Positions 32,236-53,264 of a stretch of DNA of 64,000 nt are shown in pieces. Position 1 is the first letter of the stretch. Each line of letters begins with the position of its first letter. Position numbers and translations under genes: made by a program. The DNA is from Candidatus Aquiluna sp. UB-MaderosW2red (GTDB taxonomy: Bacteria; Actinomycetota; Actinomycetes; Actinomycetales; Microbacteriaceae), in NCBI RefSeq assembly GCF_900100865.1, contig NZ_LT627734.1, positions 62,001 to 126,000 of the forward strand. The letters run 5' to 3'. The notes beneath the pieces are model-generated. The model made no database searches. It was not told where the DNA came from and worked only from the letters and a program-made list of their open reading frames with translations.

Positions 32236-32270
32236 TTAATTAGGTAGTTGACGCCGCACCGGGCCGTCCA

Positions 32271-34727: not shown

Positions 34728-34763
34728 GGTTTCCCCTCAATAAGCCCTAATTTAGTTCCATTC

Positions 34764-35240: not shown

Positions 35241-35374
35241 GTTCCCCTCCATCTCTAGTTGTTAGATGAATCTTGCACTGGGGGTCTGACGTTTTATCTA
35301 TGCAGCAATCGAACCAACGAGCTCGGGGTGCAAGGCAGGATCTAAAGGTCACACCCTCCTGCGATACTTTCCCC

Positions 35375-38300
35375 ATGCATAAAAATGGGGATTTATGGTT
35401 CTTCAATACTCGCGATCTGATGCGAGCGGCCACTTGCGAACACTGCACCACCCTCTCGGTATTCCACGCACTCCAAGTGCCCGAGGTTGAGCTAAGGCTC
35501 GCTCCCGAAATCAAAAAACAAAAAGAGCGGCGCGCTAAAGGGGAAGATAAATCACTGCCCCAAAAATACGGCGATGCCTTTGAGCTCAAGCTCACCGAAG
35601 AGCTAACAACTTCACTGCCTCAAGGTGCAGTTGCTAGACCCGAGAAGGATGGCGACGTAGCTCAGACCCTGGAGCTCATGCACCAAGGAGTGCCGATCAT
35701 CTACCAGGGCGGGCTTGAACATAGAGCACCCCACTCAGTGTTCAAAGGCAAGCCGGACTTCTTGGTCAAACAAGGCTGGCTCTTGGAGTTTGTTGATGGC
35801 CTACTCACCGCAAGACTTCAACAAGAAATACCTGGCCCGCCTAAATACATAGTTTGGGATGCCAAATACTCCTCTCACCCAAAACCCGAATACGCTCTCC
35901 AAGTTGCCATTTATGTGGAAGCCCTTGATGCCCAAGGACTAAAAGCTCCAAACTCTCGGCACGGCCTGATTCTTGGCAACCGCACCATGATGAGCTTTCA
36001 AGAAGGCGAAATAGTCCCCGCCACCAGAATCGCAAGACAAGAATTGGAGCAGGCAATAGCCAGAGTCTCTGGCTCCGCAAAAGATTCTCAATTAGAGAGC
36101 TTCACCTGGCACTGCGCCTCAAACCGCGACTGCGAGATCTGCGAATACCCAGAACTGTGTAAAGACGATCGCGAAGCAACAAAAGACCTTCTCTTAGTTG
36201 CAGGGCTAGGCAAAAACCTCAGGGCCAAACTGAATGCCGCAGGCATTCAGAACCTCAGTGAACTAGCTCGAAGCCCGCTTGAGAAGGTGCCCGATGTGAC
36301 AAAGGCGACCTTTTCAAAGATGCAAAAACAAGCCGCTCTGCAACTTTTGAGCATGGAAACAAATCAACCTGAGCATGAACTTCTAGAAGACCCACTTCTG
36401 CAATTCCTCCCAAGGCCAAGTGCCGGTGATGTCTTTTTCGACATGGAGGGCTTCCCTTATTTCCCTGATGGCGGCCTCGAATACCTATTTGGCAACTGGA
36501 CCAGAGACTCAGGTTTCACAGACTTTTGGGCGGTGGACAGGGCTGAAGAAAAACAAGCATTCATACAGTTCATGACCTGGCTGATGGACCGCATGGACAA
36601 ACATCCCGATGCTCATATCTTTCACTACGCCTCCTATGAGAAAACGGCACTTCTAAAACTTGCTAATCGCCACGGAGTGATGGGGCCAGAGGTTAGAAGG
36701 CTCGAGCAAGATAAAAGACTGGTTGACCTTTACCCAATAGTCACCAAGAGCCTAAGAATCGGCGAACCTAAATACTCAATCAAAAACCTTGAGCGCCACT
36801 ACGGCTTCAAAAGAGAATCAGAAGTTACCAATGCCAGCGCCAGCATCGATGAGTACGCCCAGTGGCGCGATTTAGTTGCTGGCTCAATAGACCTGACCCT
36901 TGGCGACCAAGAGCAAGAGGACCTCGGCCTAAGGGCCCAGAATCTCTACCACGCATTGCACGACTACAACAAAGAAGACGTAATCTCCACAATGGAGCTC
37001 TACGATTGGCTCCTCACAATGCCAGGAGCCGCCAGCCGCTTCGGAGAAGACGGCAAGTTCCAAGAGGACGACTCCGAGGAAAACCCAAGCGCTTCGGCCT
37101 TAGAGCTCCAAGAGCTCGAAGCCAAAACCGCTCGATTCTTTCTGCCGCTAAAAAATTGGCCATGGGGAGAATCGATCGAATTAGACATCAAAGCGAAGGT
37201 CTGGGAAACCCTTGCCCACTCAATACTTTTCTACCGACGCGAAGACGTAATGTTTTGGGCAGACCTACAGATTCGCATGAACCAAGACGAAGAGGCCTTC
37301 GAAAAGGACCGCGAAGCACTTCTAATATCCGATGTGACCCAGATAAATCGGAGCGAAAAGCTAAATAAAAAGGGCAACCTAGTTCACGTTGTCAGCTACC
37401 AGGCCAATTACCCAAAAGAGTCGATCTACAACCCTTCACCCGGTGATGAAATAATCATCAGGTTCCCAATTGGTGCAGGGCTTCAAAACAGAAACTTTGG
37501 CAAAGTGACCGAAGTAGCCCAGGGGCTAATCACCTTTTCCAGAGACACCCAAGACCCGGATGATTTGTTCTATCAACCAGATGCCCTAATTAAGTTTCAA
37601 AGGTTCCTAGCCAAATCCAAACAGGATGAGCTCAATAACCTAGCGGAGCGAATAACAGAGGTTTGGGGTTCCCCGAGTAACCCAGCACCCACTAAAAACT
37701 CCGCAATGGATCTACTCCTAAGACGCCGGCCTCGCCTAATAGGCGATGGCCAGTTAGCGCAGGCTGACCCGAGCAACTATCTCCCCGCACTAATTGAGAG
37801 CGTGGGGAAAATGGACAACACCGTCTTAGCGGTGCAGGGTCCTCCAGGAAGTGGCAAGACCTACCTGGCATCTCACCTTATTGCTCACCTACTAGCAGCT
37901 GGGAAATCAGTAGCGGTTGGATCCAACTCACACGCCGTGGTCGAGAACGTTCTAAAAGCGGCAATGGAAGCGGGGGTCAACCCAGCCCAAATATTCAAAG
38001 CCAAAAAGACCAAAGACACCGCAGAGTACCCCTGGGTAACGGCCTCAAGTGCCGGAACCATCGGCAAAAAGATTGCCAGGGCAAACCATGCCGTACTTGT
38101 CGGCGGCACCGCATTTGCCCTGAGCAATAAAGAGGTACGCAGCAACCACTTTGACTATTTGATCATCGACGAGGCAGCCCAGTTCTCGCTGGTGGATGCA
38201 TTGGCCGTCTCCGGGATTGCCGACAACATGATTCTTTTTGGTGACCCTCAACAGCTTCCACAGGTGGTTCAAGCCACCCACCCCGGTGGCTTGGAGAACT

Positions 38301-38938
38301 CGGCCCTGGGCCACTACATGGGTGATTACGAAATTCTCCCTAAAGGCATGGGTTACTTTGTCGAAGTAACCAGAAGACTGCACCCAAACATTAATGCCCC
38401 AGTCTCCTGGCTCTCATATGAAAACAAACTGAGATCTCACCCCGACACCAATAAGCACATCATTCAGGGCATAGCCCCTGGTCTCTATAAAGCCCCAATC
38501 AACCACACCGGCAACTCAACCTTTAGCCCTCAAGAAGTGACCAAGGTCATAGAACTGGTTGAGAAACACATCAACGAGGTTGGCGCAGAAGAGATTCTGA
38601 TTGTCGCTCCATTCAACGCCCAGGTGAACGCGATTCGCAAAGCCCTGGATAAAGCCAACCACCAAGAAGTTGCCGTTGGCACGGTAGATAAGTTCCAAGG
38701 CCAAGAAGGCCTGGTTGTGATCTACAGCTTCACATCAAGCTCATCCCAAGACGCCCCAAGAGGCCTTGGATTCTTATTGGATCGCAACAGAATGAACGTT
38801 GCAATCAGTAGAGCCAAGAGCGTCTGCTACTTGGTCTACTCAACCAACCTGCCCAAAGCAGTCTTCAGCTCATTAGAGGATGTGAAGGGTATTAGTAGGT
38901 TGGCTGGGCTGTTGGGGATGGCGAAAGAGCTGGACTGA
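35375..38938 (+). CDS. TM0106-type RecB-like nuclease fused to SF1 helicase
   Basis: A 1187-residue protein with three parts. First, a RecB/Cas4-like nuclease: GKPDFLV then IVWDAKYSS and QVAIYVEAL near residues 125-185, with a cysteine cluster (CASNRDCEICEYPELC) near 247 that may hold an iron-sulfur cluster. Second, an RNase H-like exonuclease region: VFFDMEGFPYF near 353, HYASYEKTALL near 416. Third, an SF1 helicase: GPPGSGKTYLA near 825, IIDEAAQF near 930, FGDPQQLP near 952 and VDKFQGQEG near 1107. It likely processes DNA ends. The frame opens at 35273, but the domain begins at ATG 35375. Confidence 0.88.
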   Translation: MHKNGDLWFFNTRDLMRAATCEHCTTLSVFHALQVPEVELRLAPEIKKQKERRAKGEDKSLPQKYGDAFELKLTEELTTSLPQGAVARPEKDGDVAQTLELMHQGVPIIYQGGLEHRAPHSVFKGKPDFLVKQGWLLEFVDGLLTARLQQEIPGPPKYIVWDAKYSSHPKPEYALQVAIYVEALDAQGLKAPNSRHGLILGNRTMMSFQEGEIVPATRIARQELEQAIARVSGSAKDSQLESFTWHCASNRDCEICEYPELCKDDREATKDLLLVAGLGKNLRAKLNAAGIQNLSELARSPLEKVPDVTKATFSKMQKQAALQLLSMETNQPEHELLEDPLLQFLPRPSAGDVFFDMEGFPYFPDGGLEYLFGNWTRDSGFTDFWAVDRAEEKQAFIQFMTWLMDRMDKHPDAHIFHYASYEKTALLKLANRHGVMGPEVRRLEQDKRLVDLYPIVTKSLRIGEPKYSIKNLERHYGFKRESEVTNASASIDEYAQWRDLVAGSIDLTLGDQEQEDLGLRAQNLYHALHDYNKEDVISTMELYDWLLTMPGAASRFGEDGKFQEDDSEENPSASALELQELEAKTARFFLPLKNWPWGESIELDIKAKVWETLAHSILFYRREDVMFWADLQIRMNQDEEAFEKDREALLISDVTQINRSEKLNKKGNLVHVVSYQANYPKESIYNPSPGDEIIIRFPIGAGLQNRNFGKVTEVAQGLITFSRDTQDPDDLFYQPDALIKFQRFLAKSKQDELNNLAERITEVWGSPSNPAPTKNSAMDLLLRRRPRLIGDGQLAQADPSNYLPALIESVGKMDNTVLAVQGPPGSGKTYLASHLIAHLLAAGKSVAVGSNSHAVVENVLKAAMEAGVNPAQIFKAKKTKDTAEYPWVTASSAGTIGKKIARANHAVLVGGTAFALSNKEVRSNHFDYLIIDEAAQFSLVDALAVSGIADNMILFGDPQQLPQVVQATHPGGLENSALGHYMGDYEILPKGMGYFVEVTRRLHPNINAPVSWLSYENKLRSHPDTNKHIIQGIAPGLYKAPINHTGNSTFSPQEVTKVIELVEKHINEVGAEEILIVAPFNAQVNAIRKALDKANHQEVAVGTVDKFQGQEGLVVIYSFTSSSSQDAPRGLGFLLDRNRMNVAISRAKSVCYLVYSTNLPKAVFSSLEDVKGISRLAGLLGMAKELD

Positions 38939-38956: not shown

Positions 38957-39059
38957 TTATTCTGATGAAAACTGAGCAGAAGTGAACCTCGCCATAGCGA
39001 GCGCCACTGCTTCAAAGTTCAGTCCAGGAATACCATCAGATAAAAAGGCGTCTTCTACC
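38957..39059 (-). pseudogene. Relic of N-formylglutamate amidohydrolase (3' end only)
   Basis: On the minus strand this reads DAFLSDGIPGLNFEAVALAM, matching DTFLIAGVPGPSFEKTALAI near the C-terminus of the intact hydrolase at 44101-44889. Only about 33 codons remain, ending at a stop at 38957-38959. It lies downstream of the smaller cassette genes (39364 and 40067), the same order as in the intact cassette. Confidence 0.75.
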
Positions 39060-39363
39060 AAGGTGTATCAAAGTACCCACCGCAGGCGGCCTTCGGCTGA
39101 CTGGAGGATGTGAAGTCGGTTAGCATGCTGGAGAGGCGTAAGGGTGGGGGCCTCCGGTAGGAAATCTCTGCGCTGCCCAAGCGCTACTTAGGTCGGGGAT
39201 GCAAAAGAGTTGACGGTAATCATATTCCTGGGGCTGGTCCCGAGTCTTGGCAAACTGAAGTGCACGCACGCAAAGCAATCGCGTTGGCACAAATGGGCGC
39301 ATTGCCACCCCAGAAACAGCACTCCAGGAGCGAAAGTGTAATTAGCTCAAGATGAATAGAATC
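39060..39363. other. Gap with possible gene relics
   Basis: No intact gene is seen. On the plus strand 39101-39120 reads LEDVKSV, like LEDVKGI at the end of the nuclease-helicase, suggesting a copied tail. A frame open from 39161 to a stop at 39353-39355 reads protein-like (for example KRVDGNHIPGAGPESWQTEV) and lacks a start codon and known relatives. Both may be remnants. Confidence 0.3.
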
Positions 39364-39732
39364 CTAAAATTGATCCCCGCCGATTGACCTCTCGATTTCA
39401 TCGGCGGCATTAGCTGCAAGCCTCAAGCCGAATGCAATCTCCGACTCGTCTACATCAGCGATTGGCACGACGTGAATAAGTGCATAGAAGCCGGCCAGCG
39501 TCGACAACCCTAGAATAGTGCCTTCTGCTAATTTCAAAGCAATGCCTGGAGTTAGATCACTCTCACGAGCAAATGGACCGGCGATCATGATTAGCTCGTC
39601 TGTGATGGAGACCCAAAGCCTGTGACGCCTTCCGCCCTCGATGTCGAATTCGAACTCATACAGCGTTTCGCTCTTTTGCTCAAACTTGTAGTGTCTCGAA
39701 ACAAAATTCAGTACTTCCATCCTTGTTGCCAT
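39364..39732 (-). CDS. Unknown 122-aa protein, cassette copy 1
   Basis: A soluble protein of unknown function, starting MATRMEVLNFVSRHYKFE. It is paralogous to the 122-residue protein at 45281-45649: both have an early FxFDI/FSMEI strand, a late H-V-V/N-V-F segment and the shared DESEI followed by a helix with AANAADEIE or AVEADDLE. The pattern of strands then helices recalls YbjN/CesT-like chaperone folds, but this is a guess. A clear ribosome site (GGAGG) precedes the ATG. It follows the large protein gene at 40067-41845. Confidence 0.75.
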   Translation of the reverse strand: MATRMEVLNFVSRHYKFEQKSETLYEFEFDIEGGRRHRLWVSITDELIMIAGPFARESDLTPGIALKLAEGTILGLSTLAGFYALIHVVPIADVDESEIAFGLRLAANAADEIERSIGGDQF

Positions 39733-40066
39733 GGATCCTCCGATCGATTGAATGTGGCAAAAATCTTTCTAAGACTATGGCACTTAGAAGTCCAACAACA
39801 CTGCTTATTATTGAAGTTACTAAAGTCTCCAAGTAAATTTGGAAACTGAATCCGAGTTATGGCCTTTGCCCTGGGAAAACGGTCAGGCACGTGCACATCA
39901 ACATCGAGGCCTAGAACTTACCCTTCCAGGGAGAACCCAAGTGGCATCAGCGATCCCGCTTCTGGATTACGGCAGAAGAATTTGAGCTCAACGTACCCGT
40001 ATACCCAAGTTTGAATCTGCCACCAACTAGCACTAATAAGGCGTACTCGGATTCAATCGGAAACCT
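39733..40066. other. Intergenic, 334 bp, no gene recognised
   Basis: No supported coding sequence, RNA or terminator was found between the large and small genes of cassette copy 1. The ribosome site for the small gene lies at its low-coordinate end. Confidence 0.5.
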
Positions 40067-41845
40067 TTAACCTCTAGGTCTTCCACAGTACGAGCAAAAT
40101 TGCCCCGCGAATCCCTCGAATTTCGTCCCGCAATTTGAGCAATACCGAGGAGCAACTGAAGATGTTTCACTCGCTGGCTGGCTGGATTCTTCACTTATAT
40201 TCGCGTCAAATCCGGATCCCCCTTTTTGACCTGTTGCAGAGTCGTAGCCGCCAGACTCAGCGCACTTGACTCGATACTTGCCTGCAAGGACTTCGTCGTC
40301 TTGCACCACAAAAATTTCAGCCAGGTAGTAACACGCTTCGCTTTCCGCATGCACGTCCCCACTTTGGAGCACGAGTTCGAACTTCTCTTTTGCATCGTCA
40401 AGTCTGCCTTGAAGAAATAAGGAAATGCCCCAGTTGGACAGCGCGTTGATTGACTCTCTTCCCATCTTCATTAGGTACGCGCCTTCAAGGATGCTCTCAG
40501 CCAATTGCCAGTTCTGTTCCCTAATGAGCCAGCGAAAAACTAGCGAATTTACGCAAGCTGGCACCATAGGCCCGGCACCATCGTAAGAAACCCATTCGAA
40601 TAAACGTCGTGCAGTGTCTAGGTCTCCTGCCGAGTCAGCACTGCTTGCCAACTGAGCTTGAGTGTTGGTCTCATGCATCAAGAATCCTATTCGCGTGGTT
40701 GGCACCCACCGAGAAAAGCCTCCTAGTCCCTCATTTGGCGAACCAGGAAAGCTCAGCCCCACGGCCGAAAGCAGGAGAGTGTCAAAGTCGGACTGGGATC
40801 CAGAGCTATTTGCATTTAGATAGCCATCTTCAAGTATTGAGCTGATCTTTACCAGGCCAGTTGACATTGTCTTCAAGTTTTTCAGAAGTGATAATTTGTT
40901 TGTTGTGCTGAAACTCCAACCAAAGTGAATGACGTTTGGCATAAACGTTGACGTAACTAGTAACTCTGCTCCAGTATCTTGAAATACGCCTCGAGCTTCC
41001 TCGTACCTTGCGTTGACGATAAAAGGTCTCGGTCTGTCTTCCGTGAGGACCGCTTCGAACGCAGACTGCCTAGGAAAAGAAAGAAAGCTCGAAGGAAATG
41101 GGGTTTCTGCCAAGTAAAAGAGACTCTTGGCCAGGACTGGTATGTATATTTCTGTCGACCATTGGCCGAAACTTAAAGCCCCTTGGTCTATTTCGGACTG
41201 GGGTATCTCAACGCCATCAAATGTCCCGGAGTCATTCTGCAGCCAGTTCTGAGTCAAGTGTTCAAATGGCCTTGTGGCGACTAGTGCTGGTGTGAACCAA
41301 ACGCAAGTTTCCCTACCATTGCCATCAACATAAACACGGAACTTTTGATGCACAGGCATCCCGAAGAAGTTTGTCCACTCAGCAACTCCTTCTATGCGGG
41401 ATTCCGGAATCTCAATCGACTCCAAAGGGCTGATTGGAAAACGTGTTTCGTAGAACCAAGAGACCCCCGCCTCCTGAAGCACATCAATCAGAGCAGTTCC
41501 GACTTGGGTCTGATCAATGTCCGTCTGGGCCCCAAGGTTACTGAAGTTGATGGTCATTCCCGGCAGAACCTTGGGCTCTTCAGCGGCAAAATAGTAAGGA
41601 GCAAAAGTTTCAAGGTGCGGTTCCGAGTAGGCAAGAGCCTCAGGTGACAAAGTTGCACTTATTGGAACTGGACTGTATTCAGCGAACCACGAATCCGCTA
41701 ACCGGCCAACAATTCTTTTGGACACGTTTTGCCAGGTCAGGCTTCCTTCTGCAAATCCATCCGGAATCTGCGGCTCATTCCTTTCGCCAAAACCACCGCC
41801 AAAAGAAGGCATCCCCTTTGGACCTCTATTCGAAAAAAAAGACAC
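40067..41845 (-). CDS. Large cassette protein, copy 1, with C-terminal double zinc ribbon
   Basis: A 592-residue protein of unknown function. It is clearly paralogous to the middle of the 998-residue protein at 45895-48891: both have FGW after a short V-I/V-V strand (near residue 312), EDGY(L/V)N near 338, DGAGP near 422, and a helical repeat region with SNWGISLFLQGRLDDA near 460 that looks TPR-like. The last 25 residues form a paired zinc ribbon (CSNCGTKFEG then CSYCGRPRG). GTG 41845 has the best spacing to GGGGG; a TTG at 41851 is the alternative. No signal peptide is seen. Confidence 0.78.
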   Translation of the reverse strand: MSFFSNRGPKGMPSFGGGFGERNEPQIPDGFAEGSLTWQNVSKRIVGRLADSWFAEYSPVPISATLSPEALAYSEPHLETFAPYYFAAEEPKVLPGMTINFSNLGAQTDIDQTQVGTALIDVLQEAGVSWFYETRFPISPLESIEIPESRIEGVAEWTNFFGMPVHQKFRVYVDGNGRETCVWFTPALVATRPFEHLTQNWLQNDSGTFDGVEIPQSEIDQGALSFGQWSTEIYIPVLAKSLFYLAETPFPSSFLSFPRQSAFEAVLTEDRPRPFIVNARYEEARGVFQDTGAELLVTSTFMPNVIHFGWSFSTTNKLSLLKNLKTMSTGLVKISSILEDGYLNANSSGSQSDFDTLLLSAVGLSFPGSPNEGLGGFSRWVPTTRIGFLMHETNTQAQLASSADSAGDLDTARRLFEWVSYDGAGPMVPACVNSLVFRWLIREQNWQLAESILEGAYLMKMGRESINALSNWGISLFLQGRLDDAKEKFELVLQSGDVHAESEACYYLAEIFVVQDDEVLAGKYRVKCAESGGYDSATGQKGGSGFDANISEESSQPASETSSVAPRYCSNCGTKFEGFAGQFCSYCGRPRG

Positions 41846-42052
41846 TTTCAAATCCCCCTAGATGTCAACGTGCTTTCACCCGCAACAGTCAGCTCCTAAC
41901 GCTTAGAGAAGCGACTTGGACATTCGTTGAAGCGTCCCTCTGGGCCTGATTCAATGACTTAGACCAGGGCTAAAGATGAACGCACGGGCCTGACCGTCCT
42001 TGGACTTAGCATCGTGACGATGATTATAACCAGTGCCAAGAGGTTCTACTAG

Positions 42053-42238
42053 CTATGTTCTGCGCCCATCCCTCCAGCGCAAGTATTCGCGGGCAGCCGC
42101 GGTACTGAAATTCAAATCTTGGAGGGTTCACCAATCTTCAAAGCCAACTGAATTCGGATCTCTAGTGCTGAAGCGCTCCGCCCGCATGCGAAACTCAGCG
42201 ATAAGTCCAGACCCTAAGTCATCGCCCAGCACTGACCG
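42053..42238 (-). pseudogene. Coding-like extension in frame behind the 112-aa gene
   Basis: Reading on past the TGA of the 112-residue gene in the same frame gives 36 residues such as GDDLGSGLIAEFRMRAERFS, another TGA at 42128-42130, then STAAAREYLRWRDGRRT to a TAG at 42053. The composition looks like protein. It may be the decayed tail of a longer gene. The rest of 41846-42052 shows nothing recognisable apart from the start of the neighbouring gene. Confidence 0.35.
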
Positions 42239-42577
42239 TCATTTGGGGCTGTTCACCCGAAACAAGACATTCCCCTCATTGGGGAAAAGCCCGGCCTCTA
42301 AGAACTGCTCTTGGGCCCAGTGGATATCTTTGCCTGCCATGTACTGAGTTGCCACCGAGACCTGGAAGGTCCTTATGTCTTCTCCTATTTGGTGAGACTC
42401 AGGAGACCCCATTAGGTAAAGGTGTGGTCGGTCATTACCTGCGAGTCTGGATTTTCTGGAAGTAAAAACTACTGACACGTATTCCCCAGGAGTGAAGTTT
42501 TTTGCCTCCTGTGTCATGGCTTCAACAACTGGCTGCCAAATGGTTCCGGCAAGCTCTGGTTCAAAGTCCTTGGTCAT
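42239..42577 (-). CDS. Unknown 112-aa protein coupled to the TPR gene
   Basis: A small soluble protein beginning MTKDFEPELAGTIWQPVVEA, with YVSVVFTSRKSRL near residue 33 and HWAQEQFLEAGLFPN near 85. No family is recognised. Its ATG overlaps the TPR gene stop by 4 nt, so the two are co-translated. The stop may be a recent nonsense change, since the same frame stays protein-like beyond it. Confidence 0.65.
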   Translation of the reverse strand: MTKDFEPELAGTIWQPVVEAMTQEAKNFTPGEYVSVVFTSRKSRLAGNDRPHLYLMGSPESHQIGEDIRTFQVSVATQYMAGKDIHWAQEQFLEAGLFPNEGNVLFRVNSPK

Positions 42578-43815
42578 TTATCGGACTCGGGAACGATGAT
42601 GTTTAAAGTCTCAGCCATTTTTTCCAACATTAGATTCTTCACCTTTTCAAGCTTGTCTAACTCGGGCTGATTCTCACCCCAGTCCTTGGAATCAATCTCA
42701 TCGAGCACAGCCTTGGCTTCCTGGTGGCGACCCATGAGAAATAGCGCTTCTGCCAAACTGGCTTTTGAGGACCTAATCAGCGACCTGTTTTCGATCACCG
42801 CTGCCCGCTCGATAACGTCCCGGAAGATTTCGGCAGCGGCTTCGTGTAGCTTCAGGCCCATGAACTTCTCGGCGGTCAAAAGATCCACGTAACAAACATT
42901 ATGTAATTCACCAGCATGCTCAAAATAGGCCCGAATTCGATCAGTCCTTCGGCTGAGTTCGTCTACTTGATCGTCATCGTCTAATCGATGCAGGGCGGTA
43001 ATTAACTCAAGCTCTGCAAGAGCTGCCCCAGAAAACTCCTTGGCCTCTTTGAGCTTTCTAATCGCAAACTTCAAGGGCTTTCTAGCCTTGGCGTTATTAC
43101 CAGCCAGCACGTGGGTCCAACCCAATCTGTAGTTCATGTGCACAATTCGCTCTTCCACCTCCATGAATTCGAAAGTAGCTAGCGCATCCTTGATGTGAGC
43201 CAAAGCTTGTTCGTAATCACCAAGCTCAATCAGAGCCGAAGCCATCCGATCTTTAGCCCTGGCGGCGCCAAAGGCGTCGCCAGCAGATTGGAAAATGTTG
43301 TAGGCCCGAAGAAAGCTTGCCAGCGAACTGGTTTTCATGCCTTTTACCCCGTAGAGCTCGCCCTGGCTCAGAGAATTAATACCGGCTGAATAAAACTCCT
43401 CGAGCTCCGCAAAAGTATCAATCGCAAGTCCATAGATCTCGATTGCTTCGTCTGGGCGCTCAAGTGCGGCGAGGGTGTCCCCCAAAGGTCCCGCAGAAAA
43501 CGCGATGACTCTCGAGTCGTTAATTTCTGTGCCGATTGCTAATGAGCGCTCTAGGGCTTCCAAAGCATCTACATACTCCTTGAGAGAATAAAGGCAGTAC
43601 CCAAAGCTGTAGTTGGCTTTACCCGCCTCGGCATTTCGATCTTGCTGAATATAAAGATCGTATGAGGAACCAAATAGATTCTTGGCTAGAGCCCAGTCCT
43701 CAGCCTTGAGCTTTCTATCACCAAGCTCCATAAGGGAGTCAGCTCTATCAAAGAGATCATCGGATCTTGATCGATCCCAGAGCTCTTCGTCAGACAGGTC
43801 CTCATAAACGCTCAT
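42574..43815 (-). CDS. Tetratricopeptide-repeat protein
   Basis: A 413-residue helical protein built almost entirely of TPR-like units. Clear units include AKANYSFGYCLYSLKEYVDA-type helices near residue 63, PLGDTLAALERPDEAIEIYG near 108, MASALIELGDYEQALAHIKD near 190 and SLAEALFLMGRHQEAKAVLD near 355. No enzymatic domain is seen, so it is probably a scaffold or binding protein. Both ends overlap neighbouring genes by 4 nt, placing it in a three-gene operon between the two cassette copies. Confidence 0.88.
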   Translation of the reverse strand: MSVYEDLSDEELWDRSRSDDLFDRADSLMELGDRKLKAEDWALAKNLFGSSYDLYIQQDRNAEAGKANYSFGYCLYSLKEYVDALEALERSLAIGTEINDSRVIAFSAGPLGDTLAALERPDEAIEIYGLAIDTFAELEEFYSAGINSLSQGELYGVKGMKTSSLASFLRAYNIFQSAGDAFGAARAKDRMASALIELGDYEQALAHIKDALATFEFMEVEERIVHMNYRLGWTHVLAGNNAKARKPLKFAIRKLKEAKEFSGAALAELELITALHRLDDDDQVDELSRRTDRIRAYFEHAGELHNVCYVDLLTAEKFMGLKLHEAAAEIFRDVIERAAVIENRSLIRSSKASLAEALFLMGRHQEAKAVLDEIDSKDWGENQPELDKLEKVKNLMLEKMAETLNIIVPESDK

Positions 43816-43955
43816 CGAACCCTCTTTTCCAAAAGGGTTCGAGGATTCACCTTCGCAGAAATCTTCTTGATTTCGAGGTAACGCTCAATGGGATTAGTTG
43901 TGGTGCGCTGCATCGGCTTATAGAACTGCTGACGCCCGGCTTTAGTGCTATTCAT
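43812..43955 (-). CDS. Small basic 47-aa protein heading the TPR operon
   Basis: A 47-codon gene starting MNSTKAGRQQFYKPMQRTTT and ending in a Lys/Arg-rich tail (RTLLEKRVR). The ribosome site AAGAGGGG precedes its ATG, and its TGA overlaps the TPR start by 4 nt. Coupling and the strong ribosome site support real translation. It could be a leader peptide or a small partner protein; no family is recognised. Confidence 0.7.
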   Translation of the reverse strand: MNSTKAGRQQFYKPMQRTTTNPIERYLEIKKISAKVNPRTLLEKRVR

Positions 43956-44000
43956 TTGCCCCTCTTTTCTTCCCCTAAACCAAAAGATTAAGCCCGGGCT

Positions 44001-44017
44001 CTGACATTTTTGGTTTG
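44001..44017. repeat. 17-bp repeat CTGACATTTTTGGTTTG, copy 1
   Basis: The same 17 bases occur at 49136-49152. Both copies lie just beyond the 3' end of an N-formylglutamate amidohydrolase gene or relic, so they probably mark the 3' edge of the duplicated unit. Confidence 0.8.
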
Positions 44018-44100
44018 GTTTTCAAAGTGGAATCGCTTGGATTCCGCATCCTGACATAGAGACTCGGATTACCCCGAAGCTGGGGCCATCCGAGTGGCCA

Positions 44101-44889
44101 CTACTGGCTGGCGCTACTGAGCCCATCAATCAGCTGTGCGATGGCGAGCGCCGTTTTCTCAAAGCTTGGTCCAGGGACACCAGCAATCAAAAAGGTGTCT
44201 CTTCTTAGCTCCAACATGATCGACTGCACCCTGGGCTCTTTGCCATAAAACACAAGCGGCACATAAGTACCAACAAAAGGAGTGTTTATGTCAATGTCCC
44301 CTAAACCAGACAGCTCTCCGGTGGCGAGGGCAACAAGAGCTTCTGGGGTGTGAAAGTCATCAACCCCGAGACAAACTGCCGGTCTTGCTGATTCTTTATA
44401 GAGCTCATAATCCGATGCCACAACAGGATATGAATGCAGGTCAATAATCACAACATGGCCCAATGCTTCCAGGCGCTCGGCAACGAGCGCTTGGAAGGCC
44501 AATGAATACGGCTTGAAGTAGGTGTCGATAACCTCCTGAGATTCAGATTCGGGGATATCACGCAAAGGCTTCTGGTCACTGGTCTTTGAGTAAACAACCC
44601 CCATGCCAACCTGGTTCATAACCTCGGTGTCATCTGGGAATCGCTCAGGATCAAACACCAACCTAGAGAGCGTGTTCTCAAAGATCCAAGGAGTCACCTT
44701 GGCTTTTTGAGAAGCGAGTCTTGCCAACTGATCGGTTAGCCCATCGGTCATTAGGTCCAACTCCTGCTGCAGCTCTTGGGCCGAGAGCAGCAACTGCTGG
44801 GCTATGTGATCGGGGATGTGAGTGCTTGCGTGTGGGACGTGAATGATCACGGGAGATAGTGAGTCTCCGGGTATTAGGTTCCAGTTCAT
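44101..44889 (-). CDS. N-formylglutamate amidohydrolase-family protein (intact copy)
   Basis: The 262-residue protein matches the N-formylglutamate amidohydrolase family: IIHVPHASTHIPDHI near residue 15, FENTLSRLVFDPERFPDD near 69, VIIDLHSYPV near 147 and MLELRRDTFL near 227. The family is zinc-dependent and cleaves N-formylglutamate or similar acyl amino acids. The hut pathway at 9-15 kb uses hutG and would not need it, and the cassette context suggests another substrate. Two decayed copies exist nearby. A 141-bp leader conserved with one of them precedes the ATG. Confidence 0.85.
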   Translation of the reverse strand: MNWNLIPGDSLSPVIIHVPHASTHIPDHIAQQLLLSAQELQQELDLMTDGLTDQLARLASQKAKVTPWIFENTLSRLVFDPERFPDDTEVMNQVGMGVVYSKTSDQKPLRDIPESESQEVIDTYFKPYSLAFQALVAERLEALGHVVIIDLHSYPVVASDYELYKESARPAVCLGVDDFHTPEALVALATGELSGLGDIDINTPFVGTYVPLVFYGKEPRVQSIMLELRRDTFLIAGVPGPSFEKTALAIAQLIDGLSSASQ

Positions 44890-45030
44890 TGGGTCTTGCC
44901 TCTTTCATTACCAGTGGGCCATCTGGCCCATCTACTTTTGTCAATTTCTTGACCTACTCATTTCCCTTTGCACCTTCGCCGATGGTCGGCAGGTTGCACG
45001 CTGAAGGCGGGAAGCCTTTTTATTCAGCCA
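44890..45030 (-). promoter_or_regulatory. Conserved 141-bp leader, candidate structured RNA, copy 1
   Basis: This segment differs from 51177-51317 at only 3 of 141 positions, although the following genes differ much more. It can fold: stem AAGGC/GCCTT (45004-45018), stem GCCGA/TCGGC (44978-44990) inside TGCACCT/AGGTTGCA, and a 7-bp stem TGGGCCA/TGGCCCA (44915-44930) near the start codon. The loop of the first stem could pair with TTCCC at 44962-44966 as a pseudoknot. It does not match a riboswitch class I can name. Positions 45031-45280 hold nothing recognised beyond an imperfect inverted repeat near 45037-45052. Confidence 0.5.
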
Positions 45031-45280
45031 TCTTCTAAAGCCCCTTGGGACTTGAGTGGATTTTTATTTAGTTATTAATGAAATCTTGGTGGCTTAGAAG
45101 GACTAAGTCAAGAACATTATTTTGTGTGCTGGGTGAGGCCCTTGTCTCAGCAATCTTCGATGAAACTGAAAGTTGAACCAAGGAAAATTGCAACCTGAAA
45201 GAGTGGGAAGGCTCGATTGTACCGAATCCTGATGGTCCCCAGGGGGTCCTGATAAAACTTACTTTCAGATCTGAAGTTTC

Positions 45281-45649
45281 CTAAAATTCATCTTGGAAGC
45301 CGAGTTGAGCCTCGAGATCGTCTGCCTCAACCGCAAGCTTTAAAAAGGCATTCCTTATTTCACTCTCGTCGATGTCTTCGACGAAAACGTTGTGCTTCAG
45401 GCTGTAAGCCCCTCCTGCGGTAACGATACCGAACATAGATGTGTTAGCGGATAAAACCCCGTCTGCATCGATCCTATTCGCCCAAACCACTGGGGCAGTC
45501 AATTGAAGTGCGTTGCCTTGAACGCCTGCATAAACCTTATGAGTTCTACCTCTGGTTGTCTCGATCTCCATAGAGAAAAATCGGTTACCCTCATCTGTTA
45601 CTGCGTACTTATTAAATATAAAATCATAAACCTCTTGCTCGGTTGCCAC
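45281..45649 (-). CDS. Unknown 122-aa protein, cassette copy 2
   Basis: Paralogue of the protein at 39364-39732, same length, starting with GTG (MATEQEVYDFIFNKY) after a G-rich ribosome site. Shared features are the FFSMEIE strand near residue 24 and DIDESEIRNAFLKLAVEADD near 94. The N-terminal 100 residues of the adjacent 998-residue protein appear to be the same domain in fused form. It lies between that gene and the intact amidohydrolase. Function is unknown. The 245 bp upstream (45650-45894) hold no recognised gene. Confidence 0.75.
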   Translation of the reverse strand: MATEQEVYDFIFNKYAVTDEGNRFFSMEIETTRGRTHKVYAGVQGNALQLTAPVVWANRIDADGVLSANTSMFGIVTAGGAYSLKHNVFVEDIDESEIRNAFLKLAVEADDLEAQLGFQDEF

Positions 45650-45894
45650 AGAAAACCCCCTTCATCAAGCTCTACATCTACCAAACGACAGACTTAATCA
45701 GATCCTAGCAAGGTCCAGAAAAGTAGCGTCTTTGGCTCGTGTCCCCAAAGTAGCGCTAAATGATGGTCTTGAGGAATGTGCGCCTAGTCAAGTCTCTGAC
45801 ACCTAAAGAGTCGGCGATGCTTTTCGCACCCTTAAATGGGACCAATGGTTTCTCGATTAAAGCGAAAATAACAAGACCAGAATGGAATGTGCCT

Positions 45895-48891
45895 CTAAGC
45901 CTCTTCGGAATCCCCTCGGATGCTTTTGGCCTTAGTATCCCACCACTCGTGTTCAGTGGCATAGGAGGCCATGTTTGAAATGACATCCGCAATGGTTTCC
46001 TCTACGTCAAATTCATCCTCACACCATAACTCAGCAATGAGAATCGCCCATTCGTTGTCGGTCAGATGTTTTCGAAATTCGATCTCAATAGCCTCTCTTG
46101 GATATCCAGCCGCTATGCCGAGAGTCTTGGCGGTTTCGATGAGGTCATCATCACCAATTTCCTCAAGTTCGTGCCAGCGCAGCATCTTTATCGACCATTG
46201 GTCAAAAGCTTCCAACAAGTGGGCTTCCACGCGAGTAAAGCAATCAAGCAATGCCTCTCGGAGTTTTGGTCTTGAAATTAAAGTGCTATTGGTTGCAGTC
46301 AGACCAGGGTGGAAAAACCCGTGTCGGATTGTGGTGAGGAGAGGGACGAGATTTTGATGGTCACCATCATAAAAACGCTGAACCGAGCCCCGTAACTGAG
46401 GGCTAGTTGCCAAGGATATGAGTTTTTCTCGGAAGTGCTTCCATGACGGCTCCGACGCCAGCGATTTCGACAGATCGCCATCATTCACAATCACTGTTCC
46501 CTTTCCGGAGAGTCGCTCCCAAGCTTCGAGCGCCGCGATCAGCAGTGAGATTTTAAGCATTACGTAGTAAGAGTCTGTGCTCTCTTTGCCACCCTCAAAG
46601 GTGGCTGTAGAAAGGTTTTGAGCCAGTTTTAGCTTGACCCCAAAGTTAGACACAAGCTGTCTAAGAATGGAATTCTCAGGGATCGCTGGGAAGACGCGAC
46701 CAAAACTCAGAGTTTCGCTCACTTCGGAGGGTCCCGCCAAGAAATCCGCATCTAAATTGTTTTCTTCAAGAAATTGGTTTGTTTGGTGCGTAGTTGTTTT
46801 ATTTGCTGGCGTACCCAGAAGTCCCGGGCCGAGCTGATAACCACCGGCTAGCACGCAGCGCTCTTGGAAGCTCTTCGAGAGCTCAAGGTTTCCTCGGCCC
46901 TTTTCTATGAGGCTCATGAAAAAACTGGCTTCTCTATCCGAAAACTTGTCTTCGCGCGCGAGGGCAGACGTGAATGCTTTGGAACTTGAATCAAGCTCAC
47001 CCAAAATGTAGTAGGCCACCCCGAGGTTGGAAAGCGCATTAGTTGACTGATTTAGCATTCTTTGGTCGACAGCCTGGTGGGCGAAGTATTCAATCTCTCG
47101 GATTAACTCGGGGTTTTGAGACAGCTCAGGAATCAAGAACCTGTATATGTAAGTGTTTATCCCATGCACCAAAAATGGTCCGGCACCGTCTCTAACTAGC
47201 TGGACTAGCTTTTCACGCGCACCTACATCATTCTCGACATTTAAAAACTCCCCCACCTCAACGAGAAGCTGTCTGGTCTGATCCATGAGGCCACCCACCT
47301 GAGTAACCGGAATCCATTGAGGTGCTGCCACGCGACTGCTCCTTGATGCCCCCTCTACAAGTTTGGCGCACGGATTCCCGAGCGCATCGTCCCAAGGGGC
47401 GGTAAAGTTCGGATCCCGGAAATTGACATAACCGTCTTCGACAGTTGTTGCCGCTGCGGTGCAGCCGTTGACAAGCAAAGGGAGGATCTGGCTCAAAAAT
47501 GGAAGTGAATCTTGCGTCAGTTTCCAACCAAACTGGACAACCTGAGGAAATATGGTGCTCTCAAAAACGTTTGAACTGCCTGCACCTTGAGAACCATTTA
47601 TTCTTGAAAAACCGCTTGCCTCTGCATGGTTCTTTATGGTGAAAAACGGCACCGGTCTGGCTTCATGTGGGATTTGCGGAAACGCCAAGTCCCTGCTCAA
47701 AGTCATAAGCTGACTGCCGGGCAATGGCGTCTCGCACATGAACGCAAGCTGCTTCATGAATACTGGCAGCTGGAGTTTGGTTGAAAGCTGACCCAGACTA
47801 AAGCCCCCTGCTTTTGTATCCAGGTTGATGGTCGAGATCTTGCCGTCTTCGTCCTCAACCTCAAAATAATCCACCCCATCGATTGGGACTGTGGTGGCCA
47901 AAAGATCCACAAACCAGTAGGCGGTTTCTTGACCCTCTTTATTGATGTGAACCTCAAGCGATTGATAAAACGGTGTCCCTGCAGCTGTCACCCACTGACC
48001 CTGAAGGCGGTGTTTGTTGTCTACCTCAATCTGACTCTCGTGAGAGGCTGCCCAGGTTGTTTTGTAGCTGGCCTTCAATTCCTCCGACTCCAGTGCCCGA
48101 AGGAACTCTTTGCCAATGGCAGTTTCTGGAATACTTTGAATGTCCCCCTGCTCGGCCTCGTCAATCTCAAATTTCGAAACCATCTTCAGATCTTGAGCTG
48201 CCACATGAGAAAGGCGGCCTGCAACGTCACCCATGGCTGAGAGGCGATGCTGGTGCACTTCTGATGCTGGCTTTGGGACAAAAAGCTCAAACCACGCATC
48301 AGCATTCGCATCAACAAGCACTAGGTTCTGTCGATACCACGTCGAATTTTCTGCACTGGGCTCTTGCTCATCCGATGTTATTGTCTCTCCTTGTTTGGAT
48401 GCTGTGTCTAAGGTTCGGCTCACTGGCTCAACTTGGATGCTGTGATTAGATTCGACGGATGAGGCGGAGCCTTGGGTAAGTTCTTCCTTCTTGAGAAAAT
48501 GGCGCGTACCAAGAATTTCAAACTCGCGCTTTCCAGCCTGTGAAACAATCATTTCAAGCAACAATTTGGAAGCCTCGGGGTTCGCAATTATCTGGCTGTA
48601 ATTCAACACATTGTGGTAAGTCATGGCAACTCCCATCTTGCCAATTCCCATTGCACCCAATTCAGCAGCCAAGTTTTCAACTTGGTCCATCTCGCAAACG
48701 GGAGCATCGATAAAAAGAGACTTCGCTGTAAACGTCAAGTAGAGAGGTCGCGAATAGACATGGCCGTCAATTGAAACATCGAGGTATCCGAATAGACGAT
48801 CCGAGGACGCTGGATTGAACTCAGTCTCAATGTCAATCCAGCTAAGGAGAAGCTTTTTTGATTCTTCCCTCGCAAATGATTCGTCTTCCAA
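45895..48891 (-). CDS. Large cassette protein, copy 2, with extra N- and C-terminal domains
   Basis: A 998-residue protein of unknown function. Residues 1-110 resemble the neighbouring 122-residue protein. Residues about 215-690 are paralogous to the 592-residue protein at 40067 (FGWKL near 455, EDGYVN near 484, DGAGPF near 565, NALSNLGVAYYILGELDSSS near 612). Instead of a zinc ribbon the C-terminal third is helical and carries TTIRHGFFHPGL near 853, an R-x4-H pattern like HEPN RNase-type domains, followed by an acidic tail. The start is a TTG with GGGGG four bases before it; the frame stays open upstream without ATG. Confidence 0.75.
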   Translation of the reverse strand: MEDESFAREESKKLLLSWIDIETEFNPASSDRLFGYLDVSIDGHVYSRPLYLTFTAKSLFIDAPVCEMDQVENLAAELGAMGIGKMGVAMTYHNVLNYSQIIANPEASKLLLEMIVSQAGKREFEILGTRHFLKKEELTQGSASSVESNHSIQVEPVSRTLDTASKQGETITSDEQEPSAENSTWYRQNLVLVDANADAWFELFVPKPASEVHQHRLSAMGDVAGRLSHVAAQDLKMVSKFEIDEAEQGDIQSIPETAIGKEFLRALESEELKASYKTTWAASHESQIEVDNKHRLQGQWVTAAGTPFYQSLEVHINKEGQETAYWFVDLLATTVPIDGVDYFEVEDEDGKISTINLDTKAGGFSLGQLSTKLQLPVFMKQLAFMCETPLPGSQLMTLSRDLAFPQIPHEARPVPFFTIKNHAEASGFSRINGSQGAGSSNVFESTIFPQVVQFGWKLTQDSLPFLSQILPLLVNGCTAAATTVEDGYVNFRDPNFTAPWDDALGNPCAKLVEGASRSSRVAAPQWIPVTQVGGLMDQTRQLLVEVGEFLNVENDVGAREKLVQLVRDGAGPFLVHGINTYIYRFLIPELSQNPELIREIEYFAHQAVDQRMLNQSTNALSNLGVAYYILGELDSSSKAFTSALAREDKFSDREASFFMSLIEKGRGNLELSKSFQERCVLAGGYQLGPGLLGTPANKTTTHQTNQFLEENNLDADFLAGPSEVSETLSFGRVFPAIPENSILRQLVSNFGVKLKLAQNLSTATFEGGKESTDSYYVMLKISLLIAALEAWERLSGKGTVIVNDGDLSKSLASEPSWKHFREKLISLATSPQLRGSVQRFYDGDHQNLVPLLTTIRHGFFHPGLTATNSTLISRPKLREALLDCFTRVEAHLLEAFDQWSIKMLRWHELEEIGDDDLIETAKTLGIAAGYPREAIEIEFRKHLTDNEWAILIAELWCEDEFDVEETIADVISNMASYATEHEWWDTKAKSIRGDSEEA

Positions 48892-49170: not shown

Positions 49171-49560
49171 TCATCTCTCTGAACCCCCTTCATCCGATTT
49201 GAGTGAAAGCGCATCAAGCAGGTCCGGAATTGCAGCCGTTTTTGGCTCAAAGCCTTGAGCAGGTCTACCAGCGGTCAAGAAGGTTTCTCTTCTTATTTCC
49301 AACATGGCTGACTGCACGCGTTGATCTTTTCCATAGAAGGCAAGTGGGGCATAGGTGCACACAAACAGTGTGTTGATGCCTACCTCTCCAAGCGCAGAAA
49401 AAGCATTTCTTGCCAAATCAACCAAATTGTCTGAGGTGCGAAAATTATCAACCCCCAGACAATGCGCTGGTCTGGCTGATTCCTTCTAAGGCTCGTAATC
49501 AGTTGGCGCAACTGGGTATGAGTGCAAATCAATTATCATCGCCTGACCCATCCAGGCTGG
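49171..49560 (-). pseudogene. Decayed N-formylglutamate amidohydrolase, 3' half
   Basis: The minus strand reads AMIIDLHSYPVAPTDYEP, then a TAG at 49486-49488, then KESARPAHCLGVDNF and the rest of the C-terminal domain (CTYAPLAFYGKDQRVQSAML) to the end. This matches the intact copy at 44101 across its last 125 residues with one nonsense codon and clear divergence. The 5' half lies at 50898-51176, with about 45 codons missing between. The gene is dead. Confidence 0.85.
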
Positions 49561-50890: not shown

Positions 50891-50897
50891 AATTCAC

Positions 50898-51176
50898 CTG
50901 GTTCATAACTTCGGTGTCATCTGGGAATCGTTCCGGGTCAAAAACCAAACGAGAAAGCTTGTTCTCAAAGATCCAAGGCTTCGCCCTGGCTCTTTGAGAA
51001 GCGAGTCTTGCCAACTGATCGGTTAGCCCATCGGTCATCAGATCTAACTCTTGCTGCAGCTCATTGGCTGAGAGCAGCAACTGCTGGGCTATGTGATCGG
51101 GGATATTGGTGCTTGCGTGAGGAACGTGAATGATCACTGGAGACAAAGAGTCTCCAGTGACTATGCTCCAGTTCAT
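50898..51176 (-). pseudogene. Decayed N-formylglutamate amidohydrolase, 5' part
   Basis: The first 93 codons match the intact copy closely, starting MNWSIVTGDSLSPVIIHVPH and running to FPDDTEVMNQV, where homology stops at the junction with the methyltransferase relic. About one residue in nine differs from the copy at 44101. Its 3' half lies 1.3 kb away. The upstream 141 bp are nearly identical to the leader of the intact gene. Confidence 0.9.
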
Positions 51177-51317
51177 TGGGTCTTGCCTCTTTCATTACCA
51201 GTGGGCCTTCTGGCCCATCTACTTTTGTCAATTTCTTGACCTACTCATTTTCCTTTGCACCTTCGCCGATGGTCGGCAGGTTGCACGCTGAAGGCGGGAA
51301 GCCTTTTTGTTCAGCCA
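51177..51317 (-). promoter_or_regulatory. Conserved 141-bp leader, candidate structured RNA, copy 2
   Basis: This copy differs from 44890-45030 at three positions. One change alters the start-proximal stem loop (TGGGCC-TTCT-GGCCCA) while keeping six pairs. Unlike copy 1, a 25-codon frame starting MAEQKGFPPSACNLP runs through it; copy 1 has a stop at codon 4, so that frame is not conserved. Confidence 0.5.
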
Positions 51318-51324
51318 TTTTCTT

Positions 51325-51340
51325 GAACCCCTAGGGGTTC
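51325..51340. repeat. 16-bp perfect palindrome
   Basis: GAACCCCTAGGGGTTC lies at the far edge of the second leader copy. The equivalent place in copy 1 has a weaker inverted repeat (AAGCCCC and GGGACTT). It may be a terminator for the upstream gene, part of the leader RNA, or a border element. Confidence 0.7.
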
Positions 51341-51413
51341 GAGTTGGCTAGAGTCTGCCAACTCTCAAAGCGTGACCCCGTTGGGGTTACAACGCTCCAT
51401 AAGCAGGTCAGAC

Positions 51414-51914
51414 TCAATCCGTTGTTGGGCCTTCGGGACGATCATCTGATTTACCCAAAGATTCAGTGATTTCGGATTCCATTTCCTCATCCCGGCCCCA
51501 CGTGAACTCAGATGCGACACTGAAAAAATGGAAACCGCTCCAACCCTGAAGCTCCCAATCGTTGTCATTCTCAATCTCAGATACAGAAATATCTTGATCT
51601 TGGAGCCACTTTTGAACAAGGGGATACTCCCATGCAAATCCGTCATCGGAATCCCAATCAGTGTTTCCACCTTCACCAGCCGAATTGATATCCGTGTCAA
51701 AGCTCCAGAGCTCGTATGGACCTTCCAGGTAAGGGAGCAATTCGTCAGGGGAGCAATGATCCCAGTACTCCCCCTCGTTCGGTGGATTGTGAGAACCACG
51801 CACAGCCCGCAGCACTTGACCCGGGGCAGCTTCTGTCCACAGTGCCTTTTCGGACATTGTGATGAATTCGACCAACCCAGTTAATCTCGACGTGTAAAAA
51901 ACAATTGTGGCCAT
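51414..51914 (-). CDS. Unknown acidic 166-aa protein
   Basis: A soluble acidic protein starting MATIVFYTSRLTGLVEFITM, rich in Trp, Asp and Glu, with WDSDDGFAWEYPLVQKWLQD near residue 86 and HFFSVASEFTWGRDEEME near 128. GGGGGATAAAG precedes the ATG as a ribosome site. No family is recognised. It lies upstream of the second leader and the split amidohydrolase on the same strand. It could be an immunity-like or phage-derived protein; nothing in the sequence decides this. Confidence 0.55.
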   Translation of the reverse strand: MATIVFYTSRLTGLVEFITMSEKALWTEAAPGQVLRAVRGSHNPPNEGEYWDHCSPDELLPYLEGPYELWSFDTDINSAGEGGNTDWDSDDGFAWEYPLVQKWLQDQDISVSEIENDNDWELQGWSGFHFFSVASEFTWGRDEEMESEITESLGKSDDRPEGPTTD

Positions 51915-52343: not shown

Positions 52344-53264
52344 ATGTCTTATTGGTGGGTAAACCAAAAACAGACTCACCGGCAAGAGATTGCCGGTGGC
52401 TTTATGTGGTCACCAAAGAAGAATGCAGATGGTGGCAAGAACCCCTATTACGACTTTATGACCCAAATTCAGCCAGGTGACATTGTTTTTTCATTTGCCA
52501 ATGCCGACATAATCGCAATCGGTGTTGCAACATCGATTGCCTACACAGCCAATAAGCCAACAGACTTTGGTAATGCTGGAGCAACCTGGTCCCAGGATGG
52601 CTGGGCGGTGGATGTTGATTTTCAAAGAGCAGAAAGCCCAATCACTCCGAAGCTCCACATGAATCTAATTGCCCCACTACTTCCCGAGAAGTACTCGCCG
52701 ATTCGGGCCAATGGAAACGGCAATCAGGTCTACCTGACTTCAATCTCAGCTGAACTTGGTTCGCTCTTGCTTGGCCTACTGGGTTCCCCAGAACTGAATT
52801 CTGAAGTTACAAACCTTGAAGATTTGGCATTCGACGAGCAAGAGCAACTCATAATCCAAGACAGCATGCTGGATCAAACAATGAAGGCCTCTTTAGTTCT
52901 TGCAAGACGAGGTCAAGGAAAGTTCAGAAAGCGAGTTGAGTTCTTCGAAGGAAGCTGCCGAGTGACTGGGGTCACTTCATCAAAACTTCTAATCGCCAGC
53001 CATATTAAACCCTGGGCAACCTCTTCAAACGAAGAAAGGCTTAATGGGCACAACGGCCTATTCCTCTCCCCTCACATAGACAAACTTTTTGACTCAGGAC
53101 TGATGTCCTTTGAAGACAGCGGGGAAATGCTCTTCTCTGACACTTTAGATGTCGATGTACTAACCCGCTGGAAGATTGACCCAACTAAGAAGGTAAAGAA
53201 GTTCGGTCAGGACCAGGCTTACTTCCTGGAGCATCACAGGGAATCAGTGTTTCAGCAGAGCTGA
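52344..53264 (+). CDS. EVE-like domain fused to HNH endonuclease
   Basis: The 306-residue protein has an N-terminal EVE/PUA-like module (residues 1-125; SYWWVNQKQTHRQEIAGGF, then MTQIQPGDIVFSFANADIIA). The C-terminal HNH_2 nuclease includes CRVTGVTSSKLLIASHIKPW near residue 207 and LNGHNGLFLSPHIDKLFDSG near 233. EVE domains recognise modified cytosines, and EVE-HNH proteins are thought to be modification-dependent restriction enzymes. All nuclease residues look intact. The dead cytosine methyltransferase 1.5 kb away and a decayed gene just downstream suggest the remains of a restriction island. Confidence 0.85.
   Translation: MSYWWVNQKQTHRQEIAGGFMWSPKKNADGGKNPYYDFMTQIQPGDIVFSFANADIIAIGVATSIAYTANKPTDFGNAGATWSQDGWAVDVDFQRAESPITPKLHMNLIAPLLPEKYSPIRANGNGNQVYLTSISAELGSLLLGLLGSPELNSEVTNLEDLAFDEQEQLIIQDSMLDQTMKASLVLARRGQGKFRKRVEFFEGSCRVTGVTSSKLLIASHIKPWATSSNEERLNGHNGLFLSPHIDKLFDSGLMSFEDSGEMLFSDTLDVDVLTRWKIDPTKKVKKFGQDQAYFLEHHRESVFQQS

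Follow-up and report, generated by a model that had tools for sequence, protein, structure and literature searches.

A repeated large-protein/small-protein/amidohydrolase order in Candidatus Aquiluna sp. UB-MaderosW2red: two old gene pairs interleaved with copies of an apparently independent hydrolase

Does a gene order that occurs twice within a short stretch of chromosome mark one functional system, or neighbours that were copied on separate occasions? The question is raised by positions 38957-48891 of the window analyzed here, a 64,000-nucleotide stretch corresponding to bases 62001-126000 of the 1.66-Mb single-contig genome of Candidatus Aquiluna sp. UB-MaderosW2red (contig NZ_LT627734.1). 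A large protein, a 122-residue protein and an N-formylglutamate amidohydrolase follow one another there twice on the minus strand, and a preliminary description made from the sequence took them for a duplicated three-part system, possibly with a role in defence. We favour a different reading, with a probability of roughly 0.6: there is no three-gene system, and two old pairs of large and small genes are interleaved with three copies of an independent hydrolase gene, one of them intact, in a variable stretch. The supposed cassette is more likely to be a two-gene pair plus an unrelated neighbour, a hydrolase that appears to have its own regulation.

Calling of open reading frames (ORFs) confirmed the five minus-strand genes of the preliminary description and their equal order. 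Its inventory of two copies was nevertheless incomplete, as a third, broken hydrolase gene and a repeated leader RNA had been overlooked. The features that carry the argument are the following (window positions; SAM, S-adenosylmethionine; TY-chaperone, type III secretion chaperone/YbjN).

51216-51328, minus strand: leader RNA resembling SAM-IV, belonging to the broken hydrolase copy; score with Rfam RF00634 26.4 bits against a cut-off of 38 (E 0.0061, 241 bases searched)
50896-51344: direct repeat, copy 2, 449 bp, 89.5% identity
50892-51176, minus strand: broken hydrolase copy, start half, 87% identical to the intact copy
49204-49551, minus strand: broken hydrolase copy, end half with an internal stop, 60% identical to the intact copy
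45895-48891, minus strand: large protein copy 2, ORF of 998 residues, with a familyless N-terminal part, a TPR-like helical core and C-terminal HEPN-like motifs
45281-45649, minus strand: small protein copy 2, ORF of 122 residues, TY-chaperone fold predicted
44929-45041, minus strand: leader RNA resembling SAM-IV, belonging to the intact hydrolase; score with Rfam RF00634 24.3 bits against a cut-off of 38 (E 0.018, 241 bases searched)
44609-45057: direct repeat, copy 1, 449 bp (leader plus hydrolase start), 89.5% identity
44101-44889, minus strand: intact amidohydrolase of the N-formylglutamate amidohydrolase family, 262 residues (PF05013, Pfam FGase 4.8e-43)
40067-41851, minus strand: large protein copy 1, ORF of 594 residues, with the common core and a zinc-ribbon-like C-terminal end (CxxC...CxxC)
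39364-39732, minus strand: small protein copy 1, ORF of 122 residues, 26% identical to copy 2
38984-39061, minus strand: hydrolase C-terminal remnant (50% over 26 residues; 73% over 63 nt)

The large proteins are 27% identical over 524 positions (E 1e-53) and the small proteins 26% over 118 positions (E 3e-15), alignments that bear out the earlier statement that both were kept in both copies and by which the two pairs are old paralogues. It is reasonable to regard the large and small proteins as one unit, because both copies keep the pair and its order after divergence to about 27%. The large-to-small gaps of 245 and 334 bp weigh against a tight operon, so that co-transcription of large and small gene is not evident; a consensus scan for sigma-70-like promoters gave 2 against a shuffle mean of 9.9 and does not settle the transcription units.

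The hydrolase appears to have a separate history. The tail behind copy 1 is real, 25-26 codons being conserved at 50-52% and 63 nt at 73% with none of 200 codon-block shuffles matching its score, although it comprises 26 codons and not the 33 first described. The third, broken copy sits upstream of large protein copy 2, with about 1.3 kb free of any recognised gene between its start half and its end half. A direct repeat spans the leader and the first 95 hydrolase codons. We infer a later copying or conversion of the start region, because the start repeat is 89.5% identical while the end halves of the intact and broken genes share 66.5% DNA identity (232/349 nt). A recent duplication of the large/small pair was also considered; it is ruled out by the 27% identity, and the recent part is confined to the leader and the hydrolase start.

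By its near full-length match to Pfam PF05013 the intact hydrolase is a member of the FGase family. It scores 44.2 bits with the HutG equivalog model TIGR02017, well short of the cut-off of 278.75, and also differs from the FGase/HutG enzymes in its SAM-IV-like leader and in having three relatives that accompany amino-acid ATP-binding cassette (ABC) transporters. Within the genus it was found in its own genome only (1/22), and in the family 7 of 199 genomes have a match, a count that includes its own genome and another in which the match reaches no better than E 4e-4. For comparison of neighbourhoods we used the best 80 of 341 hydrolase loci in the genome_contigs collection, all actinobacterial by record titles, together with five clear loci from family genomes (85 in total). 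Flanks of about the full 6 kb on both sides were available in 68 of the 80, and two of the five family loci were short. Neither the large protein nor the small protein, nor the TPR gene downstream of the intact hydrolase, was found in the flanks examined of any of the 80 loci (tblastn, E 1e-4), and the DNA examined of the five family loci had no match to any of them either (E 0.01). Such a neighbourhood survey had been set beforehand as the test of the cassette, and its outcome, with hydrolase relatives occurring apart from the other two proteins, speaks against the amidohydrolase as third member.

It could still be argued that the three genes form a single conflict system, with the large protein as effector, the TY-chaperone as holder of clients and the hydrolase as the enzyme that takes off or processes a modification. 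This proposal, which we consider improbable, draws on the equal order in both copies together with a genuine hydrolase remnant. A further point in its favour, and one that weighs against the separation proposed here, is the family locus L050 (L050:194-5511), in which a hydrolase relative (36-37% identical) lies amid genes for TY-Chap2 (3.3e-61), an ADP-ribosylglycohydrolase (ARG) with an additional weak phosphatase match, SIR2 and NrtR. The neighbourhood resembles the ARG-centric conflict systems described in PMC9503650, and because this hydrolase relative sits with TY-Chap2 and ARG genes, a link between hydrolase and chaperone in a conflict system is possible, with a low probability. However, the DNA examined at all 85 hydrolase loci is without large or small protein, the hydrolase of the window carries its own leader, and neither formylglutamate nor FGase is named in the main text of PMC9503650. 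Moreover, the ARG, TY-Chap2, SIR2 and NrtR proteins of L050 and the vWA protein of another family locus, L047, have no match at E 1e-3 in the window (the search covered neither WYL regulators nor the genome beyond the window); this also distinguishes the locus from the ARG-centric systems. No match to the L050 proteins was found near the 80 genome_contigs hydrolases.

The two putative leaders both align to positions 1-116 of the 116 positions of the RF00634 model and contain the core GCAACC...GGUGC, and in single folds their hairpin order was read as that of genuine SAM-IV RNAs. Since one is a copy of the other, the two amount to a single observation. We regard it as likely that the leader is a diverged SAM-IV riboswitch, because bona fide SAM-IV RNAs precede four relatives of the hydrolase. 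Several results weigh against this assignment. The scores of 26.4 bits (broken copy) and 24.3 bits (intact copy) are below the Rfam gathering score of 38, which sets the putative leader apart from RF00634; in an Rfam search over 22 kb the leader of the broken copy reached E 0.56, and that of the intact copy was unlisted at E 1. Our own model, constructed from five genuine SAM-IV RNAs, had no match at E 1 when the whole window was searched under default filters; on stretches of 241 bases and without filters, it scored 14.3 bits for the broken and 11.5 bits for the intact copy. An alignment of SAM-IV RNAs included L009 and left out L012. When the two leaders were folded jointly with three genuine SAM-IV RNAs (L013, incomplete, was left out), the consensus was poor, agreement being limited to the single folds.

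In the family genomes, a SAM-IV riboswitch at the gathering score was found upstream of the hydrolase at L046 (57.7 bits) and L047 (74.3 bits), in both cases with one short OR​F, by reading, between riboswitch and hydrolase. As for the other family loci, L048 and L049 have fewer than 400 bases upstream and L050 is without SAM-IV. Our own model, used with default filters under which diverged examples may be missed, matched 2 of the 80 genome_contigs loci, L098 and L064, and both matches were confirmed by Rfam (run on 11 of the 80). At L098 (3307-6795) a SAM-IV riboswitch is followed in a row by genes for an SBP_bac_3 protein, a permease, an ATPase (ABC_tran) and FGase, the last three overlapping. 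The gene order at L064 is equal to this, and L091, a locus that begins at the contig end, has permease, ATPase and then FGase. The three relatives belong to uncultured actinobacteria and are 48-50% identical in the best segment; ABC transporter queries against the other 77 genome_contigs loci returned three ATPase matches only (30-37%).

Gene order places relatives of the L098/L064/L091 type in what would be SAM-controlled amino-acid uptake, and the SAM-IV-led operon of ABC transporter and FGase suggests that N-blocked amino acids are taken up and hydrolysed under SAM regulation. The hydrolase of the window probably takes part in SAM-regulated amino-acid salvage, because bona fide SAM-IV RNAs precede four relatives, two of which belong to amino-acid ABC operons. 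Since these two operons are SAM-IV-led, the enzyme would be made when S-adenosylmethionine is low and would release an amino acid, which may be methionine, from its N-formylated or N-acylated derivative; its substrate may be N-formyl- or N-acyl-methionine. A point against salvage is that SAM-IV was found near only 4 of the 85 hydrolase loci, most of the others being from Streptomyces. Among the best-ranked matches listed in a literature search, no paper was found that joins SAM-IV and formylglutamate.

A family of proteins of about 130-150 residues (25-62% identity) adjoins or overlaps the SAM-IV riboswitch on its 3' side in four loci (members at L039:10500-10955, L037:434-877, L011:1644-2039 and L046:7413-8027). 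The L039 and L046 members have no Pfam match, and the L046 member lies between riboswitch and hydrolase. Outside the window, at C1:127000-137063 of the same genome (L039:1000-11063), a bona fide SAM-IV riboswitch (69.9 bits) precedes genes for a 151-residue protein, a DrmD-like helicase, a type III methyltransferase, a type III restriction enzyme and a 547-residue protein. These genes are on one strand with short gaps or overlaps, and a SAM riboswitch apparently heads a restriction-modification operon.

The large protein was found in its own genome only, that is in 1/98 genomes of relatives, 1/398 of the family, 1/396 of the phylum and 1/391 of the order (overlapping sets), and in none of the 21 other genus genomes. 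Scans of genome_contigs (with two peptide patterns only), plasmids, phages and viral contigs confirmed no further copy. Against plasmids at E 10, the large and small proteins of copy 1 gave 3 and 5 records, respectively, at E 5-10, which were taken as chance, and the C-terminal piece of copy 2 gave one Azospirillum plasmid match (E 0.3) that stops before its RHGFFH motif. A PHROGs search returned nothing below E 0.1. The PADLOC 2023 profiles gave no family for any of the four large and small proteins at E 0.1.

Likeness of the large protein to TPR proteins is weak, TPR_1 in copy 2 reaching E 0.005, short of the cut-off. The predicted model of copy 2 has a predicted local distance difference test (pLDDT) value of 31, too low to place helices or search folds. 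The two copies end differently: the CxxC...CxxC end of copy 1 resembles DZR (E 0.056, short of the cut-off) and replaces the HEPN-like stretch of copy 2. According to PMC3710099, HEPN ribonucleases are defined by Rx4-6H with a polar residue after R, often together with Ex3[KR]. In the C-terminal stretch of copy 2, which is predicted to be mainly helical with low confidence, RHGFFH at 856 agrees with Rx4H and the polar residue, and EAWER at 789 agrees with the upstream Ex3R, a common pattern with two more matches in the same stretch. Against a HEPN assignment, shuffles of this stretch carry R[NDH]x3H in 4.4% and a looser form in 12.4%, and the C-terminal piece has no Pfam match at E 10 and no HEPN among four weak PDB sequence matches; in this respect copy 2 differs from HEPN ribonucleases. 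The N-terminus of the large protein was tried as a second chaperone domain and rejected, 56 of 200 shuffles being equally good, and this counts against the reading favoured here.

These motifs bring to mind a toxin-antitoxin or abortive-infection pair in which the toxin would be a HEPN-type ribonuclease and the small protein would inhibit it. The Rx4H and Ex3R matches, the small neighbour kept in both copies and the defence-type surroundings in two relatives, described below, would agree with it. Yet copy 1 is without the HEPN-like stretch and still keeps its small partner, the whole protein has no PADLOC match and the C-terminal piece no Pfam or convincing PDB match, and the motif frequency in shuffles adds to these objections; such a pair is distinctly unlikely.

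For small protein copy 2, AlphaFold2 with a two-sequence alignment gave a best model of pLDDT 84.5 out of five, the others having 66.6-77.0. In Foldseek, type III secretion system (T3SS) chaperones were the best matches (E 1e-4, probability 1.00), and YbjN followed at E 0.025. The matched entries include HopA1-SchA, ExsC-ExsE, YopN-SycN-YscB, SigE, CesT and YbjN, mostly with TM-scores of 0.5-0.7. The predicted fold is that of a TY-chaperone (helix, beta meander, helix, two strands, helix), which the small protein would share with T3SS class I chaperones, YbjN and TY-Chap1-3. It differs from them in having an orphan TPR protein as partner and no family profile match: neither Pfam nor NCBIfam gave a TY-Chap, YbjN or CesT match at E 1, its Pfam matches were at chance level only (SFXNs 0.19, Phage_tail_NK 0.18) and NCBIfam had no match.

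A search with both small proteins gave matches in 8 of 398 family genomes at E 0.1. Apart from its own genome, only G246 was strong (E 2e-10), with G222 at E 0.002 and the other five above 0.03. None was confirmed in viral contigs. The G246 gene lies 1.2 kb from the end of a 35-kb contig, and no large partner was found in the first 12 kb of this contig; by reading, it adjoins a putative methionyl-tRNA synthetase gene, a vWA-like ORF and a small zinc-ribbon-like ORF. A standalone small protein in these surroundings fits the view that the pair is a cytoplasmic, non-defence scaffold-chaperone or regulatory pair, YbjN-like, which stands in a variable stretch by chance. The same view is consistent with YbjN-family proteins, which have the fold without known secretion according to PMC5398634 and PMC3575483. 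However, the large protein is absent from the 21 other genus genomes and the broader samples, and C-terminal ends that differ between copies are more typical of accessory conflict genes; we hold this view to be somewhat unlikely.

A further proposal, also unlikely and put forward tentatively, is that the pair represents an undescribed two-gene conflict system, in which a TPR-core protein with a swappable end (HEPN-type ribonuclease or zinc ribbon) is guarded by a dedicated TY-chaperone. Two diverged versions would be present in one small actinobacterial genome, beside (by coincidence or selection) a hydrolase under SAM-riboswitch control by which methionine would be released from its N-formyl or N-acyl form.

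Within the reading favoured at the outset the two-gene unit is possibly a conflict system. With less support than the role proposed for the hydrolase, its TPR core might serve as a scaffold, and the small protein might bind the large protein or peptides that are clients of the latter. The differing C-terminal ends (HEPN-like in copy 2, zinc-ribbon-like in copy 1) might be swappable effectors by analogy with conflict systems.

A tempting three-gene system is in this way split into two separate testable hypotheses. One concerns an orphan pair of TPR protein and predicted TY-chaperone whose C-terminal ends differ, and the other an FGase-family hydrolase whose relatives in SAM-IV-led amino-acid transporter operons suggest that N-blocked amino acids, which may include N-formylmethionine, are salvaged under SAM control.

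Between the intact hydrolase and large protein copy 1 lie the TPR gene and a 112-residue gene, and these, with the genes at the margins, complete the locus.

51414-51914, minus strand: ORF of 166 residues, 5' of the broken hydrolase copy
43812-43955, minus strand: ORF of 47 residues, read from the sequence; it lies 5' of the TPR gene, and its stop overlaps the start of that gene
42574-43815, minus strand: TPR protein, 413 residues (TPR_12 1.8e-21)
42239-42577, minus strand: ORF for a 112-residue protein of no family, its start overlapping the TPR stop
35273-38938: TM0106-type nuclease-helicase gene, the ORF after the hydrolase remnant, convergent with the cassette

The 47-residue ORF, the TPR gene and the 112-residue gene overlap successively by a few bases. 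TPR orthologues occur in 3 of 22 genus genomes including its own, with 49% identity in G010 and 47% in G007, and both are preceded by ORFs with some likeness, by eye, to the 47-residue ORF. The TPR gene has no plasmid match, and the 112-residue gene was not confirmed in viral contigs. In G007 a purL gene (by reading), a major facilitator superfamily (MFS) gene and a helicase gene (57%) lie within about 10 kb, with genes for a DNA methylase and a DndH-like HerA ATPase downstream of the helicase; about 30 kb farther on, the TPR orthologue adjoins an NYN gene (55%). The contig that carries the G010 orthologue is 18 kb long and also encodes an AAA_21 ATPase, a cytosine methylase, a Schlafen-group-3 helicase that matches GIY-YIG weakly, and a helicase homologue of greater divergence (31%). 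The TPR gene appears to move among defence-type neighbourhoods in its three genomes. Large protein, small protein and hydrolase were not found in these stretches of G007 and G010. The earlier suggestion of a defence role is therefore left with mixed evidence, the large and small proteins being without PADLOC match but defence-type genes occurring near the helicase or TPR orthologue of the two relatives.

The 166-residue ORF weakly resembles (20.5%, E 2e-5) a 445-residue protein beside the G007 helicase (L036:10750-12087). Nuclease-type genes (MUG113, weak NYN, HNH_2) flank the region at 33714-35252 and 52344-53264, which fits an accessory stretch. The spacing from the purL-like to the MFS gene is about 1 kb in G007, compared with about 12 kb extra in the window (19900-32270), where the additional DNA includes carbohydrate transport and glycosidase genes.

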